Positions 1 through 63,687 of a DNA stretch of 64,000 nt are shown here, in pieces (position 1 is the first letter of the stretch; every line of letters starts with the position of its first letter). Made by a program: the position numbers and the translations under genes. Source of the stretch: Tetrahymena thermophila SB210. Its lineage: Eukaryota > Ciliophora > Oligohymenophorea > Hymenostomatida > Tetrahymenidae. The notes beneath the pieces are model-generated. The model was not told the origin of the DNA. It saw only the letters and a program-made list of their open reading frames with translations, and did no database searches. The stretch lies in assembly GCF_000189635.1 (NCBI RefSeq), contig NW_002476437.1, positions 190,292 to 254,291 of the forward strand, in the 5' to 3' direction.

Positions 1-1841
1 GTTTCGATAGTTTATTTATTATTTCTTTTTCTTACTATTTACCAACTTCATTCGACTCCTTTTATAATTAATTATTAAATTTTATTAATCGTAGTATTAG
101 AAAGTAGAGAGAGATTTTAAATAAGAATTAAAAATAATATTTCTAAATTAAATATTAAAAATATTTTGAACATAAATTTTTATTATCAATATTTTACTTT
201 ATAAAGATATTGCAAATAGTTAGAAATTTATACTCTTAAAGTTTAAGACACATTTTCTTCTCTCATAAGCCTATGGATGACCTGCATACTTTCTTTATAT
301 GATTTATCTTTCATTTCTATATTTTCTATAATGCTACCTATCCTATTCAAACTAAACGCATAAAAAAATCCAGTGACAAACATAGTTATTGTTGTAAGTA
401 GTATTTCATATGTTGTTTGAGGAGTTATGTCTCCATATCCAACTGTTATCATCGTGACTGAAAGAAAATAAAATGATTGAACATACCTTGTAAAAACATT
501 TGCATCTTATATTCCTCTCACTTAGAGCCAAGTATTGTTACACCCTTATTTAATTTCATAGATTGCTAGTCCATGCCAGAAAAGACAAAATACATGGCAA
601 ACACAGGCTATAATAAAGACAAGCTTTACTAAGTCAACAATATTTTTCATGTTTTTTTAGTAGTTCAAGTAATAAGTTAGTCTATTAAAAATATCAGAAA
701 GGACAAAGAGTTTCATTAAAATCTAAAAGTAGATAGCCCAAGAGTATAAACCCTGAAGTTTTATGTCTAAAATAAACATAAATAGAGGTAGCAGTGCTAT
801 TTAATCCATGATGAAGTTCTTTTTTAAATACGTTATAGCTGCTTTTTTCCTATCGAAAATAACGTTACCTTTTTCAACAACTCCTGTATTGAAAGTAAAC
901 AGTATATCTAAAACAAACACAACAAAGACAGTCTAAAAGAAATTTACATAATACTAAGGATCCATTTAAAAGAAATTTATCAAACTAAAGAGGAACATAA
1001 CACTAACAATAAGTATTGCTTGGAGAATATCCCATAAAAATTTATAAATATTATATGGCTAAAATATTGGTATATTTTCAATTAGGCAATTCACAAATTT
1101 AGTTAAGAATTGTAGAATCTTTCTGAGTTTTGGTATATAATTTAGAAACTTTAGATTTCTTTAGCTTTATTGAATTTAAAAGATAGACGAGGCATCATTA
1201 ATTAAATAATGCTAATCTCTTGTTAATTTTCCTAAAATTCTAGTGTTTTTTGTAAGCAGTCGATAAAAACTTTTAACATTTACTAGCAAATTTATTGCTC
1301 TAATTAATTTTTTTGGATTTTTAATTTATTTCTTTGATTTTCCTTCATATTGGCTTCTTTAAAGTTCAAATTTTGATTTAATTTATTTTTAATCTAATTC
1401 TATTGAAATTCTTGATAGTTTTGAGCCTTAACATTAAATATCGTTGGGTATTTTAGTTATCTATATTTTTGATTCATCTTTTCTTTCTATTTAAGAGCTC
1501 TAATCTAATCCATACATATTTTTTTCAATTACACTCATCTACTGAAACTACGAGCTTTAATCATCATTTATTTCTTAATCTGTATTGAAGTACTATTAAT
1601 CATTTAAATTTGTGTAAAAGTTATGTTAATTTTCTGTTTTTAGATCATCATGTGTTTATTCTTTTACAGTTTCGCTTTATTTCATGCTTAGATAGATTAA
1701 ATCCTAATGATCCTTTAGCAATATAAAAAATTTGGCAATTAAATAAAATAAGGAAATTTTAAATACCTATTTATTAAATTAAACACTATTCATATGAATA
1801 TTAAAACCATTTTCCTCTTGAGTGATTATATTTTCTATCAT
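1..1841 (-). CDS. CNBD-type six-TM K+ channel, copy 1 (3' end beyond window)
   Basis: First of three tandem paralogues; the C-terminal CNBD and tail lie beyond the left edge. Model: exon 1 at 1767-1841, a 54-nt intron, exon 2 at 198-1712, an intron at 59-197, exon 3 from 58 off the edge. Exon 1 encodes 25 residues starting MIENII. Exon 2 carries a polar N-terminus, then S1-S6. The S2-S3 loop has the FDRKKAA motif typical of CNG/HCN/EAG-like channels. The pore has the K+ selectivity filter TVGYGD, followed by S6 and a helical C-linker (MREENVSQTL). TAA/TAG are read as Gln. Expected role: plasma- or ciliary-membrane K+ conductance; ligand and gating are not shown by sequence. The S4 segment has few basic residues, so voltage sensing may be weak. 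No in-frame TGA breaks the visible part. Confidence 0.88.
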
Positions 1842-2588: not shown

Positions 2589-5500
2589 TCATTATTAAGC
2601 TTCGATAATTTCATTTGCTTTAATATTGTAACTAATTTATCTTAGGTTTTTTTTATTTGATCCAAGTATCCTTGATGGCTATTTCCTCAAAGATTTTTTC
2701 TTATTTTACTTTATCTTAATAGTTTTTAGTTTTTAAATGACTGAACTAATATTGAAATTTGGATAGTAATATTTAAAATTATTAGCTTTATCAAATATTT
2801 GTAACATTAAATAATTAGAATCTATTAATTATTATTAAATTGCATTTTATTATGAATAAATATTATTTTGATTGAATAAATTATTTTAAAGCGACGATAA
2901 ATTATTATTTTATAGAGATTAATAATTTATTTCTTATTTACCCACTTGGTGCAGTTATTTTCTTAAGATGTCTTTGTTATTTATTTCTAATAAAAGAGAA
3001 GATCTATTTTTTAAAATTTCTGGTAAAAGTTTACTATTTTCACTCTCAAATATCAAAGAGTTTTAATTTTTATTTATATTTGATTCTTAAGGATAGAGCT
3101 TATAAACATTTTTATTTTATACATTTGAACGTCTTTTAGCAATTAATGGAGAGTTATTCATTTATTGAGCGATTTATGAAAACATATTCTAATTTTGATT
3201 ATTTTAGCTGATTAAATTTTAGATTTGATTTTAAGTAACTGATTACCTTTTATTAGCAATATTAAAAATATATCCTTAATTTTATTATGATTAAAAATGC
3301 TGATTCATTTGATTTAATAGTTTAAAGGGCTTTCTAATTGTTGTATTTTAATTATTTTGTAACTAATTTTATAAAGCTTCTTAAAGAATTATTTAAGAAA
3401 TTCTTCTGTTTTATTATTACATTTGCCTAATTAAGGTAACTTTCTTACTTTATCTTCTATTTAAATGTTATTATTTTTAAACTACTTATTTACTACATCC
3501 CAATTCATTTTTACTCACATTTTAGCCATTTGAAACAGATTTTATTGTGCTCTAAGATGTGTAATTAAGATTTTATTTGGATTAATCTAAATTTGAAATT
3601 GTTGAATTGCTTGATTTAAATTTTTCATCTTTTAATGTTGGAACTTATTCATTTTTTATGTCAAACAAAAAGGGAGGAGTGTTTTTTAAATCATTTAAAC
3701 TAATTTTAAGCATTTAAGATGTTGTTAAATGTTTAAGTTATTCTAAATGATTTAAAGAGGTTTCATCAAAAGATTAGGATCTCATAATTTATTATTAAAA
3801 TACATCATTAAAATTACCTATTTTTTAATCATTACTTTCTTATATTTATTTATTTAATCTTGATTGATTATGAATAGTTTTTTATTTGTCTCTTTAGATC
3901 AATTCTTCTTTTTTTTCAACATCTAAATTATAGAGGCTTTAAGATTTTTTCTTAAAAAAGTGATAGGCATTCTTATTTTAATATATTTTAACTTTATTAA
4001 TTAAATTTACTACATCTTGTTAAGATTTATTATTTTTTAATTCTTTTGATTCTTAATTTTAGCTGATTATTTTATTTTCTTAAAAAAATCTGTTACTAAT
4101 CATAGGTTTTTTAGCTTTTCCTTCGTCGTAAACCTAGCTTTAACATTTTTTATCATTATTTTGGTAAGATAATTAAGAATTTTAATGTGAATTTTAGATC
4201 TAACTTTCGATATTTTTAATTTCTTCATTTTAGCTTTTAAGTGAGCTTTATTATTTGAATTTTTTTAAAGACCTTTATGTAAAACTGCTTAAGCTAGAAT
4301 TTTATTCAAAACCTGAAGTTTCCTATTCATCTCCATTTTATAGTACATATTAAAATTCTACTAAACCACTGTGAGGCTATATTTTATCTAAACTTAAATG
4401 CCTTGATCTGTTATTTAGAGACTAAATTCTTTATTTATTTTAATAATAAGCAGGTTACATTTTTTCAATTTCTGTATTCATTAAATCTTAAGAAATAATT
4501 TAATTTTATTAATTTTCTTGCTCTTAATCTTAATCCACCTCAGAAATAATTTAATTAGTTTTTATTATTTTATTTTATTCCTGAGCTATTTATTCTAATG
4601 CTTCTAATTCTAATATTTATTATTCTAAATAAGCTTCATCTTAACTATAATGTATCTGGTCTTCTAAATTCTATAAATCCTAAAAATTATCTTCTTTATC
4701 TAAGAATTCGAAAATAGCTTCTATTATATCAAAATTAAAGGTAAGAGAATTATATTTTTATTTTCTTCTTTCAAAAATTTATCTTTTCAAATGAGGATTT
4801 GTTTTGTTTTCTTTTTAAATCAGTGTTTAAATAGAAAGTGTTAAATGAGTTTTAGGGCATTTTAAAGAAACGTGATCTGTCTTACTACATGTGTAGCATT
4901 TTATGTTGAAAAGCTTTTGATTTTATTTGAATATATAAGCCTCTCTTAGCATCTAGAAATTCTCAAAATCTTACTCTGATTGTTTAATGCAATTAAAAAA
5001 TTTGTCCCTAGAAATTTTATAAGTTCTACAAAATTCGCTTGCTTAAGCTGTCAATATTCTCACACTTCCTTAAATTAATTACATATCACCAAAATACTAT
5101 GATTTATGTAACTGAGCAATTACTAAATTCTAACTTTGATTTCTATCTTAGTATTCATAAGTAATTTTGACACTTCCTTTAACTATATAATACAGAGCAC
5201 TGTCATCTAAATCTCCTTATTGAAAAATATATTCTCCAGGTGAAAATAGACATTCTTCCATTATTTCAACAATTTTTGATTTAGATTCTAGCTTGTCAAT
5301 AAATTCTATATCTTTCAAATACTTTCCTTAAACATCTTGAATGAGACCATATTTTAATTATTTTGATAGTTTATCTATTATTTCTTTTTCTTGTTATTTA
5401 CATACCTCATTTGATTCCTTTGTATATGTTTTAATTTATAAATTAGTTTTAATCGAATTATTATAAATAAATAAATTGATAACATTAAAAATTAATTTGT

Positions 5501-7393
5501 CAATTTTAATATATTTTAAATTTTAATTTTTATATAAGTAAATTCTTCTTGAATAGTATAACTTTTTTTGATTATTAATTTTATAAATTCTTCTATTAGT
5601 AATATTACTTACTATTCCTTTGTCTATTGATAATATATCCAAGTTTTATTTTTGAAAAGAGGGGGTATATCTCATATAAAAAAGAATATTATAATGCTCA
5701 AATTAAATTTTGCTATTAAATAAATAATTTACTTTATAAAGATACTGTAGATAGTTTGATATTTAAACTCTTAAAGTTTAAGATACATTTTCTTCTCTCA
5801 TAAGCCTATGAATGACCTGCATACTTTCTTTATACGATTTATCTTTCATTTCAATATTTTCAATAATACTACCTATCCTATTCAAACTAAATGCATAGAA
5901 GAATCCAGTGACAAACATAGTTATTGTAGTAAATAGTATTTCATATGTCGTTTGAGGAGTTATATCTCCATATCCAACTGTTATCATTGTAACTGAAAGA
6001 TAATAAAATGATTGAACATACCTTGTGAACACATCTGCATCTTATATTCCTCTTTATTATAGCCAAGTAGTGTTAGAACCTTGATTAATTTCATAAATTG
6101 CTAGACCATGCCAAAAAAGGCAAAATACATGGCAAACGCAGCCTATAATAAAAACAAGTTTTACTAAATCAACAATGTTTTTCATGTTTTTTTAGTAATT
6201 TAAATAGTAAGTTAGTCTATCGAATATATCAGAGAGGACAAAAAGCTTCATCAATATTTAAAAGTAGATAGCCCAAGAATATATACCTTCAAGTTTTATA
6301 TCTAATAAAAACATAAAGAGAGGCAGTAATGCTATTTAATCCATGATGAAATTCTTTTTTAAATATTTTATGGCAGCTTTTTTCCTATCAAAAATAACAT
6401 TGCCTTTTTCAACAACTCCTGTATTGAAAGTAAATAACATATCAAAAACAAATAAAATAAAGACGGCTTAAAAAAAATATACATAATTCTTATAATCCAT
6501 TTAAAAGAAATTGATCAAACTAAAGAGAAACATAACACTAACTATTAGTATTGCTTGAAAAATATCCCAAAGAAATTTGTACAAGTTGTAGGGTTAGAAC
6601 ATAGGTATTTTATTTATTATGCAATCAATAACTCTAATAGATACTAGTAGAACTTTTTTAAGTTGAGATAAAAACTTAAAAAATGAATTGTTTTTTTATT
6701 TTTTATGAGCTTAAAAAATTGATACATTATCATTTATTAGATAATGCTAATATTTTGTCAATTTTTCTAATACTCTTGTATTTCTTGATATTTAACGATA
6801 AAAAGATTTCACATTTACTAACAGATTAATAGCTCTTATCAGCTTTTTTGGATTTTATCTGCTATTTATTTCTTAAAATTCATTCTTATAAGTTACTGAA
6901 ATAGTTTTTGGTTTTTATTCATCCTAATTCGAATGTTAGGATTGTTTTTAATGAATTGAATCTTAAAATTTAAAAGATTGTGATGTTAAATCTAGATTTT
7001 TACTTTATCCATTTTTTTCATACAAGTTGTCATTGTTTTCCATATTTTGCTTAAACTCTTCAATATTTTCTTACTAATTCTAAGTATATGAGTTTTCTAT
7101 CTATTAATTTTGTTGACTGAACTCTTCAAACTATTGATCATTATTATTTGTAAAAAAAAACTATTATATTTCTGATTTTAAGTCATCATTTGTGCACTCT
7201 TAGACAGATTCTCCTTATTTATTATTGAGTTTCAGTAAATCTAAATGATCCTAATAATAATAGACAAAATATAAAATAAGAAACAAATTTGTATTTATGA
7301 AAACACAAAAAAAGATACTTATTCATTCAGTTTAATACTTTTCATGTGGTAAATTAAAGTACTTTCGTTATTAATAGATGAAAAATCAATCAT
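2589..7393 (-). CDS. CNBD-type six-TM K+ channel with CCHC zinc knuckle, copy 2
   Basis: Complete gene of three exons (7319-7393, 5733-7250, 2589-5417) with introns of 68 and 315 nt, giving about 1473 aa. The order is: 25-residue exon 1 (MIDFSS...); Asn/Gln-rich cytosolic N-terminus; six TM segments in the second half of exon 2; filter TVGYGD near residues 449-454; C-linker; CNBD at about 550-660 (SPGEYIF, LYYIVKGSVKI); then a zinc knuckle C705-x2-C708-x4-H713-x4-C718 (CYTCSKTDHVSLKC); then about 750 residues of Gln/Asn/Ser/Lys-rich tail. The CNBD phosphate cassette is unusual (FGDMQLIQGS, then RILTA). Start chosen at the ATG whose exon splices in phase to the conserved GATCAT acceptor shared by all three copies. 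Exon sequence is very close to copy 3, so the duplication is recent. Likely a membrane K+ channel; ligand unknown. Confidence 0.9.
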
Positions 7394-8163: not shown

Positions 8164-11100
8164 TCATTACTAAGTTTTGATAATTTCATTTGTTTTATTA
8201 TTTTAACTTATTTATTTTAGGTTTTTTTTATTTGATCCTAGTGTCCTTGATGGCTATTTCCTCAAAGATTTTTTCTTATTTTGTTTTATCTTATTTGTTT
8301 TTAGTTTTTAAATAACTGAACTAATATTGAAATTGGGATAGTAATATTTAAAATTATTAGCTTTATCAAATATTTGTAACATTAAATAATTAGAATCTAT
8401 TAATTATTATTAAATTGCATTTTATTATGAATAAATATTATTATGATTGAATAAATTATTTTAAAGTGATGATAAATTATTATTTTAGAGAGATTAATAA
8501 TTTATTTCTAATTTACCCGCTTGATGCAGTTATTTTCTTAAGATATCTTTACTATTTATTTCTTATAATAGAGAAGATCTGTTTTTTAAAATTTCTGGTA
8601 AAAGTTTACTATTTTCTAAACTCTCAAATACTAAAGAGTTTTAATTTTTATTTATATTTTATTCTTAAGGATAGAGTTTATAAAAAGTTTTATTATAGGC
8701 ATTAGAGCGTCTTTTTGCAATTAATGGAGAGTTATTCATTTGTTGAGCGATTTATGAAAACATATTCAAACCTTAATTGTTTTAGCTGATTAAATTTTAG
8801 ATTTGATTTTAAGTAACTGATTACCTTTTATTAGCAATATTAAAAATATATCCTTAATTTTATTATGGTTAAAATTGTTGATTTGTTTGAGTTAATAATT
8901 TAAAGGGCTTTCTAATTATTGCATTTTAATTATTTTAAAACTAATTTTATAAAGCTTCTTAATGAATTATTTAAGAAATTCTTCTGTTTTATTATTACAT
9001 TTGCCTAATTAAGGTAACTTTCTTACTTTATCTTCTATTTAAATACTATTATTTTTAAACTACTTATTTGTTACATCCCAATTCGTTTTTACTTACATTT
9101 TAGCCATTTGAAACAGATTTTATTGTGCTCTAAGATGTGTAGTTAAGATTTTATTTGGATTAATCTAAATTTGAAATTGTTGAATTATTTGACTTAAATT
9201 TTTCATCTTGCTATTTTTGAACTTATTAATTTTTTATATCTAACATAAAGGGATGAGTATTTTTTTAATCATTTGAACTATTTTTAACCATTTAAGAGTT
9301 TGTTTAATTTGCAAGTTAATAGCTTAAATGATTTAAAGAGGATTCATCAAAAGACTAGGATCTCATAATTTATTATTAAAATACATCTTTAAAATTGCCT
9401 ATTTTTTAATCATTATTTTCTTATATTTATTTATTTAATCCTGATTGAAATTGAATAGTTTTTTATTTTTCTCTTTAGATCAATTCTTCTTTGTTTTCAA
9501 CATCTAAATTATTTAAATTATTGAGACTTTAAGATTTTTTCTTAAAAAGATGTTAGGCATTCTTATTTTAATAAGTTGTAACTTTATTAATCAAATTTAC
9601 AGCATCTTGTTAAGATTTATCATTTTTTAATTCTTTTGATTCTAAATTTTAGCTAATTATTTTATTTCCTTAAAAAAATCTATTACTAAGCATAGGTTTT
9701 TTAGCTTTTCCTTCGTCATAAACCTAGCTTTAATTTATTTTATCATTGTTTTGGAAAGATAATTAAGAATTTTAATGTGAATTTTATATCTAACTTTCGA
9801 TATTTTTAATTTCTTCATTTTAGCTTTTAAGTGAGTTTTATTATATGAACTTTTTTATAGACCTTTATGTAAAATTGCTTAAGCTAGAATTTTATTCAAA
9901 ACTTGAAATTTCCTATTCTTCCCCATTTTATAGTTTATATTAAAATTCTACTAAACCACTGTGAGGTTATATTTTATCTAAGCTTAAATTCCTTTGCCTG
10001 TTAGTAATTAAAGAATATTTTTTTTGTTTATTTTAATTATATGTTGGTTGAATTTTTTCGATTTCTTGATTAATTAATTCTTAAGAAATAATTTAGTTTT
10101 ATTAATTTTCTTGCTCTTGATCTTAATCTACCTCAGATATTATTTAATTATTTATATTTATTTTATTTTATTCATGAGATACATAAGCCATTTATTCTAA
10201 TGCTTCTAATTCTAGCATTTATTATTCTAAATAAGCTTCATCTTAACTATAATTTAACTGGTCTTCTAAATGCTATAAATCCTAAAAATTATCTTCTTTG
10301 TCTAAGAATTCGAAAATAGCATCTATTGTATCGAAATGAAAGGTAAGAGAATTATATTTTTATTGTCTCCTTTTAAAATTTTATCTTTCCAAATGAGGAT
10401 TTGTTTTGTTTTCTTTTTAAATCAGTGTTTAAATAGAGAGTGTTAAATGAGTTTTAGGGCATTTTAAAGAAAAGTGATCTGTTTTATTACATGTGTAGCA
10501 TTTTATATTGAAAAGCTTTTGATTTTATTTGAATATATAAGCCTCTCTTAGCATCTAGAAATTCTCAAAATCTTACTCTGATTGCTTAATGCAATTAAAA
10601 AATTTGTCCCTAGGAATTTTATAAGTTCTACAAAAATCACTTGCTTAAGCAGTCAATATTCTCACACTTCCTTAAATAAATTACATATCACCAAAATACT
10701 ATGATTTATGTAATTGAGCTATTACTAAATTCTAAGTTTGATTTCTATCTTAGTATTCATAAGTAATTTTGACACTTCCTTTAACTATATAATACAGAGC
10801 ACTATCATCTAAATCTCCCTATTGAAAAATATATTCTCCAGGTGAAAATAGACATTCTTCCATTATTTCAACAATTTTTGATTTAGATTCTAGCTTGTCA
10901 ATAAATTCAATTTCTTTCAAATATTTTCCTTAAACATCTTAAATGAGACCATATTTTAATTATTTTGATAGTTTATTTATTATTTCTTTTTCTTGTTATT
11001 TACATACTTCATTCGATTCCTTTATATATTTTTTAATTTAAAAATTAATTTTAATCGAATTATTGTAAATATATTTATAACATTAAAAATTTGTCAATTT

Positions 11101-13049
11101 CAGAATATTTTAGATTTTAATTTGTATAAAGGTAAAAATTTTTTTGAATATTTGCCCTCTCATAACCTTTTATCTCATCAAATTTTTATACAACATTTTA
11201 TTTTTGAAAAGAGGGGTAGATACCATATAAAGAAAATATTATAATGCAATAATTAAATTTTGTTATTAAGTAAATAATTTACTTTATAAAGATACTGTAG
11301 ATAGTTTGATATTTAAACTCTTAAAGTTTAAGATACACTTTCTTCTCTCATAAGCCTATGAATGACCTGCATACTTTCTTTATACGATTTATCTTTCATT
11401 TCTATATTTTCTATAATACTACCTATCCTATTCAAACTAAATGCATAGAAAAATCCAGTGACAAACATAGTTATTGTAGTAAATAGTATTTCATATGTCG
11501 TTTGGGGAGTTATGTCTCCATATCCAACTGTTATCATTGTAACTGAAAGATAATAAAATGATTGAACATACCTTGTAAACACATCTGCATCTTATATTCC
11601 TCTATATTATAGCCAAGTAGTGTTACAACCTTGATTAATTTCATAAATTGCTAGACCATGCCAAAAAAGACAAAATACATGACAAACGCAGGCTATAATA
11701 AAAACAAGTTTGACTAAATCAACAATGTTTTTCATGTTTTTTTAGTAATTTAAATAATAAGTTAGTCTATCGAATATATCAGAAAGGACAAAAAGCTTCA
11801 TCAATATTTAAAAATAGATAGCCCAAGAATAGATACCTTCAATTTTTATATCTAATAAAAACATAAATAGAGGCAGCAATGCTATTTAATCCATGATGAA
11901 ATTCTTTTTTAAATATTTTATGGCAGCTTTTTTCCTATCAAAAATAACATTGCCTTTTTCAACAACTCCTGTATTGAATGTAAATAACATATCTAAAACG
12001 AATAAAACAAAGACAGCTTAAAAAAAAAATTCATAATTTTTTTGATCCATTTAAAAGAAATTGATCAAACTAAAGAGAAACATAACACTAACTATTAGTA
12101 TTGCTTGAAAAATATCCCAAAGAAATTTGTACAAGTTGTAGGGTTAGAACATAGGTATTTTATTTATTATACAATCAATAACTCTAATAGATACTAGTAG
12201 AACTTTTTTAAGTTGAGATAAAAACTTAAAAAATGAATTGTTTTTTTATTTTTTATGAGCTTAAAAAATTGATACATTATCATTTATTAGATAATGCTAA
12301 TATCTTGTCAATTTTTCTAATACTCTTGTATTTCTTGATATTTAACGATAAAAAGATTTCACATTTACTAACAGATTAATAGCTCTTATTAGTTTTTTTG
12401 GATTTTTAGTATTTTTTATTTCTTAAAATTCATTCTTACAAGTTATTGAAATAGTTTTTGGTTTTTATCCATCTTAATTCAAATGTTAGAATTCTTTTTA
12501 ATGAGTTGAATCTTTTAATTTAAAAGATTGCGATGTTAAATCTAGATTTTTACTTTATCCATTTTTTTCATAGTAGTTTTCATTATTTTCTATATTTTGC
12601 TTAAACTCTTCAATATTTTCTTACTAATTCTAAGTATATGAGTTTTCTAGCTATTGATTTTGATAATTTAACTGGTCAAGCAATAGATCATTATTATTTG
12701 TAAAAAAAAACTATTATATTTCTGTTTTTNNNNNNNNNNNNNNNNNNNNNNNNNNNNNNNNNNNNNNNNNNNNNNNNNNNNNNNNNNNNNNNNNNNNNNN
12801 NNNNNNNNNNNNNNNNNNNNNNNNNNNNNTTTTAAGTCATCATTTGTGCACTCTTATACAGTCTCTCCTTATTTATTATTGAGTCTCAACAAATCTAAAT
12901 GATCCTAATTAATAATAGGGCAAAATATAAAAAAAGAAACATATTTATTTTTAAGAAAACACAAAAAAAGATACTTATTCATTCAGTTTAATACTTTTCA
13001 TGTGTTTAATTAAAGTGCTTTCGTTATTTAGAGAAGAAAAATCAATCAT
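8164..13049 (-). CDS. CNBD-type six-TM K+ channel with CCHC zinc knuckle, copy 3
   Basis: Same structure as copy 2: exons 12975-13049, 11283-12904 and 8164-11019, introns of 70 and 263 nt, about 1482 aa once the gap in exon 2 is closed. It has the TVGYGD filter, S2-S3 FDRKKAA, the CNBD, the zinc knuckle (CYTCNKTDHFSLKC) at about 10480-10525, and the same long polar tail. Indels against copy 2 in the tail are whole codons (for example an extra Asn-Asn-Leu), and the frame stays open to TGA at 8164. Both copies therefore look maintained as proteins. The 100-N block at 12730-12829 falls in the N-terminal cytosolic region and not in the channel core. Function as for copy 2; what distinguishes the copies cannot be told from sequence. 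Confidence 0.9.
12730..12829. other. Assembly gap of exactly 100 N
   Basis: Fixed-length scaffold gap within exon 2 of channel copy 3. It is bordered by five T on the left and four T on the right. Aligned to copy 2, the two flanks meet with a four-T overlap and keep the reading frame, so probably no sequence is missing. Confidence 0.97.
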
Positions 13050-59387: not shown

Positions 59388-62300
59388 ATGAAGTTAAAAT
59401 CTTTAGACGAAAATAGAGCTTATCAAAAGCGCAAAACCATCAAAAAAGAAAAAAGTCTTTTTGATTTTACGCCAAGATTAGCCATACCAGAATTTACAAT
59501 TCCATCGATTAGGTAAAATGATGATGATATTCAAATATCTTTGGATTGCTCAGAAAGACACACTTTGGATATGAATGGAGATTAAACAGTTTCTGATCAT
59601 AAACTAAAAAAAAGCGCATCTTTTATGTCGAAAAATACTACCAAGAATAACATATCATTTAACAATCGATCAGATAATAACATTTTAATTCATTAAGATT
59701 AAGAAGGTTTTATGAAGTAATAAAACGATTAGAATATGGATCTTTATTCAAAGGTGGATTTCATATCTGAGAAAAATATAGCCCTTTCAATCGCTGGAGG
59801 TAGCTAAAGAAATATACCAATAAGTGCTACTAAAATTTAGAAATAATTAGCAAACAGGAGATAATCAAAGTTTTATTTTTCAGAAAGTGAAAGCAGATTT
59901 AAAATTCCAAGCTAAAATTCGAGAGAATACAAGGTAGAAAACATAGAAAACTTACCTAGGCTAAAGAGCAACTTTTCATTGATTTCTAATATAAAAGGGA
60001 ATTTAAACAAAATGTAGCAGAAAGTGATTGCTATAGGGATGCTATTAGTTTTTTATGTGAAACTTAAAACATTAAGTGGAGTAAATTAAATAACCAAGCA
60101 ATATATGTTAAGTTCGAAAGTGGATAACAAGTCTCACCAGCTGAAATGCCTTACATATTTAAATGATTTTTCTTAAATTAGTGATAAAAAACAGTAGTAA
60201 CTTAAAAAAGAAAATAACTTGATTTCTTTGTCTACAATAAATAACTAAAAAAACGAAAGTGGTTAACAAAATAAAAAATGCTCTTTTATCTAATTTTGTT
60301 TTGGCTGTATACCTGTAATTCATCCAGACTCTAAAAAATTATTCTTATTTGACATTATAAATTTGATATTTATAATTCTCAATCTAACTTACGTTCCAAT
60401 TGAAACTGTTATTGACACTCCATTTTTACAGATGTATGGCAACAAATGGTAATATAATATTATTCTTTCAAATATCTTTTGAATTAATTTTTTATAAAAG
60501 GTTTATTTTCATCACAAGCTCTATATCGGTTTACTTCTTTAGCGTGATTCTCTCTTTGAACATGGGCTATTATGATAAAGGTTATTGTATAATGGATAGA
60601 AATAAAATTCTAGTAAGGTATATGAAGTTAGGATTTTGGGTTGACATCTTAAGTACCTTTCCTATGTTCGTTAGTGGGATTAATTCAAAACCTGTTTATA
60701 AAATGTGCAATTTATTTGTTATATTAAAAATTAATTGGATTGATAAGTTTTTTTACAAGTACTTTGAGATATGCAATCTAAAGAAAAAAATAAAAAAAAT
60801 GGTCTTTTTAAAGTTTTTATACATCCTATTGAAAATTCTATTTTTCGTTCATGTTTTTGCTTGCGTTTTCCTCGCTTTCAGTTATCATGTTAATGCTACA
60901 GATAATTGGATTACAAAGTATGGATCAGACTTAGACTCAAAAGGATGGTTCACAAAAGTAAATAATTTTAAATGCATAACGCAATAATATAAAAATGAAT
61001 TAAAAATAAAATATAATAAATAGTATGTCTATGCATTTTATTGGGGAATAACGATTATGACTACTGTTGGATTAGGTGATATATTACCTAGTAATATTTA
61101 TGAAGTCTGTGTCCTCTCATTATTCATGTTTTTTTCATGTGCTGCATTTGCTTACTCTTTTAATTCAATAGGAATTATTTTAGATGAAATGAACCAAAGA
61201 AGTGATTTATTTGTGAAAGAAATGAGAATAGTTAGCAGGTATTTTTTTAAACCAATTATTGTGAAATTTTATTTATACTACTTGATTTTTTCAATTTTTC
61301 AATAACTCAAACAAAATAATTGTTAATTAATTTACTAATTGATAATGAATCAATTAGTAAGTTAGTTACTATAAAAAGATATTTATTTCAAAAAAATTTT
61401 TAGCAAAATCCTCTAAATTTAAAGTTAAGGTTTATTTTAATCAGTAATAAAGTCTATTTTTATTTAGTTTATATTGGGATTTTAATTTCTCTCATTTAAT
61501 AAATTAAAAAATGCTTTAAATTAATCATAAATAAATACTAAATAAATAGATACTTATAAATGAAGAAAGTTGATCATGAGCTTTAAATTGAAGTGAGAAA
61601 ATACATAGAATATAGATTTTAATTTGAAAATGAAATCTCTTAAGAAGAGGAAAAGATAGTTTTCAAGAGACTACCGATTAGTATCCAAGAAAAGCTAATT
61701 ATACAATCAAATATGGCTATTTTAAGGAAAATTAGTTTTTTATAAAATAATTTTTCTGAAGGGCTACTTAATAAATTGTGTTTAACTATAGAATCTGAAT
61801 AATGGTTAAACTAAGATACCATTTATAAATAGGATGATGTTTATGCTGAGTCTTCTAATAGCATCAAGTTTTATATTTTAGAAAGTGGATAAGTACAACT
61901 ACTTGCTAATGCTGGCAATCCTGATTAACCCTTAGTTATTAAAAATATTACTGATGTAGAAGATTTTGGATCTTTAGAATTCTTTAATGATGAGCCAAGA
62001 CATTATACTGCCGTTACTATAGGGACAACAAAACTACTCTCAATAAGTAGGAGTAAATTTTTATAAATTCTTAAATAGTTTCCAGAAGATTATGAAAAAT
62101 TTAAAATGCTTTGCGAAAATGCTAAGATGAACAAAATATAGTTCGATATCAAAATAAGTTGCTATTGCTGTTAGAAATATAACCATTCTCTCAAAGAATG
62201 CCCAAAAATTCATTACATTGCTAATAAAGAGCTATCAATTTTGAAAGTAATTAATTTCTATAAAATATTAAATATTTAAAGTTTCTATTAATGAACAAAT

Positions 62301-63687
62301 AATAAAAAACATGAAAACAAATTTAAGAAAATTAAAAAAAACAAGTTATAAAAAATAATAAAAAAGCTAATGAAAAGTTAATAACTAAAAAACATACAAA
62401 AAAGTAAGCCAAAATAATTTCAATAAATCATAATAAATCATTATTAATTTTAATGGAAATAATTCAAGCTTTTTTTTACTTGATTAGTAAAAATAATCAT
62501 AAAAATATTGAAGTAATTTTATATTTCAAAATAAAAATATAATTAATTGATTTATTTTTAGCATGTTTAAATCCAAAGTGTTATTTATTTGCTAAATAAA
62601 AATCAAATAAATTAGAGAAAAAACAAGCTAAAATTTAAATTTTATTTATTGTAAGGTATTTAATTAATTTTTTTCAGATTTTAGTATATTAAAAAATGGT
62701 TTATTGCAAAAAAAACACATAAATATAACTCACAAAATAAAAACCTATTATTAGTTTTAATTTTTATTTATTTATTTATTTATTTACTTACTTACTTACT
62801 TATTTAACAAATAGAATATGTTTAGTTTACCATAGTAAAGAAAGGCATCTAGAAGGAATTTTAAATTAAAAATAAACTCTCTATATGAAAATCATATTAT
62901 TTAAGAGAGAGCTATATGCTATTAATAATACAATCATGATGAGTTGAATAAAATTGAATCACCTTTAATTACTTAGGAAGATATTTTAAATACAGAAACC
63001 TATAGAAACGGAAATGGAAATATCCATAAAAATTAAAATAATTAGAAAGTACTATTGAATATAGCAACAAATGATTTGATTTCGAGAGTTGATTTTGATA
63101 TTTAAGAAAAAAATTTAAACAAACTGGTTAGGAACTAGTCTTTTTCAACAAGAAAGTCAACATGCTTACGCCCAACCCTATTCAAATAAAACACAGATGC
63201 AATAAACATTGATTAAAACGAAGACATTTTAAAATAGTAAGTTGAATCAAATTATAGTCCTGTTTCACTATCGTAAAGAAAACATCATACTACAATTAAT
63301 TTAAATACTCATGATCAATAATTATTTCATAAAAACTAAAAAAAAAATACAGAATCTCCATCCCCTCATATAAGTTATCAAAAACGACATATCTCAATAA
63401 ATAATTTACCTCAAGACGAAATCAACGAGAAAGACATAAGCTTTATGATAGATAATTTTGATAGATTAAAGAATTATAAATACTACTTTCCATATAATAA
63501 TTATGATAACATATTAAACTAATATGAAAAAATTAGACCCAAATTTAAGTATCAAAGACTTAGGAAGCCAAGCCAATATTTTTTATTTCCTAACTTGAAT
63601 TTTAAAAAATTAACTAAAAATACAAAAAATAAAATCTAATCTGAAAATAAAATAGATGTTACCTTCAATGATTCTTTTAATGCTTGA
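59388..63687 (+). CDS. CNBD-type six-TM K+ channel with CCHC zinc knuckle, copy 4
   Basis: Five exons (59388-60448, 60501-60957, 61024-61238, 61550-62246, 62815-63687) join to 1101 codons. Residues 1-330 are a polar, Ser/Lys/Asn-rich N-terminus. S1 starts near LFLFDIINLIFIILNLTYVP. The S2-S3 motif is GYYDKGYCIMDRNKILVRY. The pore filter is TTVGLGD (residues 519-525), with Leu in place of the usual Tyr. C-linker and CNBD follow (FYILESGQVQLL; FGSLEFFNDEPRHYTAV), then a zinc knuckle C782-x2-C785-x4-H790-x4-C795. A polar tail ends in a block (NYKYYFPYNNY, RLRKPSQYF) alignable with the tails of copies 2 and 3, which supports placing exon 5 in this gene. Introns are 52, 66, 311 and 568 nt. A diverged relative of the left-end array, probably a membrane K+ channel; the ligand is unknown and S4 is weakly charged. 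Confidence 0.9.
62767..62810. repeat. Short TTTA/CTTA tandem repeat in an intron
   Basis: About ten four-base units (TTTA, then CTTA) just before the acceptor of the last exon of channel copy 4. Confidence 0.8.

Follow-up and report, generated by a model that had tools for sequence, protein, structure and literature searches.

A CCHC Zinc-Knuckle-Like Motif behind the Cyclic-Nucleotide-Binding Domain of a Tetrahymena thermophila K+ Channel Family

Introduction

What is a CCHC zinc-knuckle motif doing directly behind the cyclic-nucleotide-binding domain (CNBD) of a K+ channel? The question is raised by a 64,000-nucleotide stretch of the Tetrahymena thermophila SB210 genome (contig NW_002476437.1, positions 190,292 to 254,291 of the forward strand; hereafter, the window), in which four channel genes, referred to as copies 1 to 4, are associated with the sequence C-x2-C-x4-H-x4-C. 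The same arrangement was found at a near-constant distance behind CNBDs throughout the genome, and in a tree of these domains its carriers fall within one clade.

The Motif in the Window

The window, in which TAA and TAG encode Gln, was read with the ciliate code (table 6) and searched in all six frames with the relaxed pattern C-x2-C-x(3,4)-H-x(3,5)-C. Only three matches were found in the 64 kb. Each of them keeps the exact C-x2-C-x4-H-x4-C spacing and shares an open frame with an upstream CNBD (PF00027):

4857..4898, minus strand: copy 2 CCHC knuckle CYTCSKTDHVSLKC (pattern search)
4980..5246, minus strand: copy 2 CNBD (PF00027, 57.5 bits)
10459..10500, minus strand: copy 3 CCHC knuckle CYTCNKTDHFSLKC (pattern search)
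10582..10848, minus strand: copy 3 CNBD (PF00027)
61833..62078, plus strand: copy 4 CNBD, with FGS..R in the phosphate-binding cassette (PF00027, 44.8 bits)
62160..62201, plus strand: copy 4 CCHC knuckle CYCCQKYNHSLKEC (pattern search; member of family alignment A2)

The first-pass annotation had described this spacing after the CNBD in copies 2, 3, and 4, and the search confirmed it. Its position for the copy 3 motif (about 10480-10525) is corrected to 10459-10500, and its CNBD-to-motif distance of 40-50 residues becomes approximately 27 residues in all three copies, counted between the PF00027 match and the first Cys. Copy 1 also has the motif: its CNBD and its knuckle, which reads CYTCNKTDHFSIKC, fall immediately ahead of the window start (L119).

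Genome-Wide Distribution

A PF00027 profile search of the 101 Mb genome, in which 150 of 540 candidates were scored, gave at least 151 matches, the totals being lower bounds. The 150 listed CNBDs include neither window copy 2 nor copy 4; 106 were read, namely the 30 best-scoring and then others by contig name, leaving 44 unread. With the motif counted if it lay in frame within 75 residues after the CNBD, the exact motif was found in 66 of the 106, on 24 contigs and 25-30 residues past the CNBD match. In 2000 rounds of shuffling of the 75-residue segments, by comparison, motif loci averaged 0.009 and never exceeded two. In two further CNBDs the motif is in a different frame and 49-52 residues away, the pattern expected of an intervening intron. 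A single-protein search, with 150 of 322 candidates scored, gave at least 145 places that align through the query's last knuckle Cys position, which is no proof of ligand retention; the ligands were checked in the 66.

Two copies, at C246:102123 (L014) and C249:54227 (L111), keep the C, C, and H and have lost the last Cys. Both are natural mutants of the knuckle module, and L014 has an upstream pore (TVGFGD).

A helix signature, D-x-[EQ]-x-[FYQ], which uses no knuckle residue but was derived from motif-bearing members, picks 67 of the 106 CNBDs; the motif is in frame in 66 of these and in another frame in the remaining one. Among the 39 CNBDs without the signature, none has the motif in frame and one has it in another frame; the two decayed copies also lack the signature. 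Because of the way the signature was derived, a tree built from the CNBD alone is the fairer test. In this FastTree tree of 99 tips (98 of the 106, with eight short hits left out, and copy 4), one group of 72 tips contains every one of the 69 whose knuckle is intact or split (support 0.945-0.959); its remaining three tips are C122:354501 and the two decayed copies.

Among the 42 of 106 CNBDs with at least 1.4 kb upstream, the upstream sequence contained a VGxGD pore for 20 of the 22 with a knuckle versus one of the 20 without, the exception being the decayed C246 copy. This wider pattern was devised after filters split by apparent introns were noticed; the stricter earlier pattern gave 10 of 22 and one of 20, respectively. 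In nearly every CNBD K+ channel examined, the CNBD is followed at the same short interval by a knuckle, and the module looks built in.

At C22:29243 (L058) and C174:501946 (L049), an apparent intron splits the filter between TT and VGYGD/VGSGD. A CNBD array at C428:270680-323753 comprises one lone domain and four pairs (2-3 kb apart); it has no knuckle, and no pore was found in the 1.5 kb upstream.

Identity of the Knuckle

The family profile matches the solved zinc knuckles of AIR2, TUT7, HIV NC, and Lin28, and AIR2 is the best solved match after a Tetrahymena channel chain (7w5z_C, described below). The channel motif has its exact spacing in common with the zf-CCHC family (PF00098; AIR2, TUT7, retroviral NC, Lin28), and in 44 of 66 members its last Cys is followed by Pro. 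Unlike zf-CCHC proteins, the channels carry a single knuckle fused to the CNBD of a membrane channel, Gly precedes the His in just 21 of 66 members, and an additional His lies four residues past the last Cys in 58 of 66.

In searches with the zf-CCHC profile, the whole open reading frames of the window copies scored 12.4, 16.5, and 10.2 bits, not reaching the cut-off of 20.8, and short segments of copies 2 and 3 scored 15.7 and 20.6 bits, also below it; because of these scores, the window copies on their own can only be called knuckle-like. Their sibling channels in the same genome fared better, with 10 places behind listed CNBDs exceeding the cut-off. Among members, zf-CCHC matches numbered 36 of 63 at E ≤ 0.1 and 33 of 67 at E ≤ 0.01, the cut-off not being applied per member. 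Structure searches with the knuckle model alone returned no significant match. Judged from its sequence, the family motif is probably zinc-binding.

Structural Model and Possible Roles

In CNG and HCN channels the C-helix closes over the ligand; the knuckle is placed at the end of this helix. In 63 of 66 members the knuckle lies 24 residues past a conserved Asp, and conservation continues behind it in the stretch CP-x-x-H ... Q-x-R ... R. The following segment of copy 2 was used for a structure model:

4749..5429, minus strand: copy 2 C-linker, CNBD, knuckle, and post-knuckle helix

The model has the C-linker and CNBD fold, aligning with this region of HCN4, CNG, SthK, and AKT1; it is confident up to the knuckle, which directly follows the C-helix. 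Among the 50 structure matches listed, most stop at or before model residue 169, and two reach 186-187.

The best explanation, to which we would give roughly an even chance, is that the knuckle is a rigid, zinc-stabilized extension, or cap, of the CNBD C-helix. That the single CCHC knuckle and the stretch behind it form one rigid unit with the CNBD is suggested by their near-constant spacing, by the conservation of the post-knuckle residues, and by the confidence of the model up to the knuckle. One Zn2+ would lock the module as a structural cap packed at the C-helix end, and this cap would stiffen or anchor the helix. Upon cyclic-nucleotide binding, the knuckle and the sequence behind it might then receive or restrain the movement of the C-helix, perhaps at a subunit interface. 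A bolder version, which we consider unlikely, holds that Tetrahymena has a greatly expanded K+ channel class, probably of more than 100 loci, whose cyclic-nucleotide gate is built around an obligatory knuckle and whose gating is set directly by zinc or thiol redox chemistry (a "zinc-clamped CNBD").

As the leading alternative, the module could serve protein docking, with the zinc-bound surface recruiting a scaffold, kinase, or trafficking factor, and gating being secondary. AIR2 knuckles, which reportedly bind Trf4, offer a model for such a role, and the rank of AIR2 among the solved matches, the hydrophobic residues in the motif (Y or F at position 2 in 46 of 66 members; L, I, or F at position 10 in 48 of 66), and the post-knuckle Arg residues kept in 61 and 57 of 66 members are all consistent with it. 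However, no partner protein is known, and the near-constant C-helix spacing suggests packing on the CNBD over a free arm, though it is still compatible with docking; we regard docking as possible, but somewhat doubtful. In a zinc or redox sensor, the thiolates would release zinc or become oxidized, altering the C-helix lid and channel opening. The location of the knuckle directly behind the C-helix in the model, and the conservation of its ligands, would fit such a sensor, but ligand conservation suits a structural zinc equally well and nothing points to labile zinc, making this role quite improbable.

The first-pass annotation had suggested that the knuckle might tether RNA or an RNP to the channel. 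Its interpretation is partly supported: the CNBD-knuckle arrangement that it described holds genome-wide, whereas the tether has only family resemblance in its favor, namely the RNA-binding HIV NC, Lin28, and TUT7 among the profile relatives, and nothing specific. Known RNA-binding knuckle proteins usually have two or more knuckles; each channel has one, versus seven tandem classic CCHC knuckles in one CNBP-like gene of the same genome (C356:22272-22775, L001). The scarcity of Gly before the His also argues against a tether, as does the modest charge of the knuckle core (family mean +0.5), although the seven-knuckle gene has a mean of -0.3, so charge is indecisive. These sequence features do not decide RNA binding, and we consider the tether very unlikely. 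Still less credible is the proposal that there is no zinc site and that the Cys and His residues are kept for disulphides or a fold core: it is favored by the window copies falling under the Pfam cut-off, but conflicts with the exact knuckle spacing, the siblings over the cut-off, and the profile matches to solved zinc knuckles.

Relation to Known Channels

The C-linker and CNBD are common to the CNG, HCN, SthK, and plant AKT-SKOR-GORK channels; copy 2 combines PF00520 with PF00027, and a phmmer search gave hits to SthK, HCN, and SKOR. We know of no zinc knuckle at the corresponding place in any of these channels. Presumably, automatic domain databases already list both the CNBD and the knuckle on the Tetrahymena proteins. 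No description of the combination was found in the literature, judged by titles and abstract openings. The CNBD channels belong to the best-studied gated channels; in them, ligand binding is converted into movement at the C-helix. A lineage in which a conserved zinc-type module directly continues this helix is a natural experiment on CNBD gating, and the arrangement is a distinct structural target. Given that T. thermophila has 396 genes of the voltage-gated-channel superfamily (PMC3341644), a large part of a ciliate's excitability may involve the arrangement. The terms "cyclic nucleotide", "zinc", and "CCHC" are absent from the portion consulted of that Ichthyophthirius genome paper.

A 1471-residue channel sequence is deposited as chain C ("Cyclic nucleotide-binding domain protein") of entry 7w5z, a T. 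thermophila complex IV dimer, and contains a pore, a CNBD, and a knuckle, CYNCKKIGHISSSCPKTH. Its CNBD-knuckle stretch matches C422:130872-131540 with 96% identity, 10 Q-coding stops appearing as mismatches in 223 residues. The chain is not among the 50 matches listed for the CNBD structure model. Two Tetrahymena respiratory papers use the entry as the complex IV dimer (PMC10227065, PMC10060162), and "cyclic nucleotide" is absent from their main text, as far as the parts consulted extend. It may be that only another part of the chain was modelled, or that the chain assignment deserves a check.

Channel Architecture of the Window Copies

The predicted products of the window genes are K+ channels of the voltage-sensor type that contain a C-linker and a CNBD. 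The pore pattern detected four pores, TVGYGD in copies 1, 2, and 3 and TVGLGD in copy 4. The ion-transport domain of copy 2 scored above the cut-off with both PF00520 (38.6 bits) and PF07885 (37.6 bits), a result for copy 2 alone, as the scanned reading frames of copies 3 and 4 exclude the transmembrane part.

426..443, minus strand: copy 1 K+ selectivity filter (pore pattern)
5961..5978, minus strand: copy 2 K+ selectivity filter, VGYGDI (pore pattern)
11511..11528, minus strand: copy 3 K+ selectivity filter, VGYGDI (pore pattern)
61066..61083, plus strand: copy 4 selectivity filter region, VGLGDI (pore pattern)
62247..62814, plus strand: copy 4 likely intron, AAA|GTAATT...AATAG|AATATG (inferred from sequence)

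Across the family, the cyclic-nucleotide contacts are mostly kept (Gly in 66, Glu in 50, and Arg in 61 of 66 members), and many of these CNBDs therefore probably still bind cyclic nucleotide. The phosphate-binding cassette reads FGD..R in copies 2 and 3, and copy 4, with FGS..R, may bind more weakly. From 62815, behind its likely intron, the copy 4 frame reads NMFSLPQQRKASRRNFK and stays open to 63687, resembling the family post-knuckle sequence FSxxQxR....RR. The copy 4 filter has GLGD where GYGD is usual, and an assembly gap of 100 N (12730-12829) lies beside the copy 3 gene.
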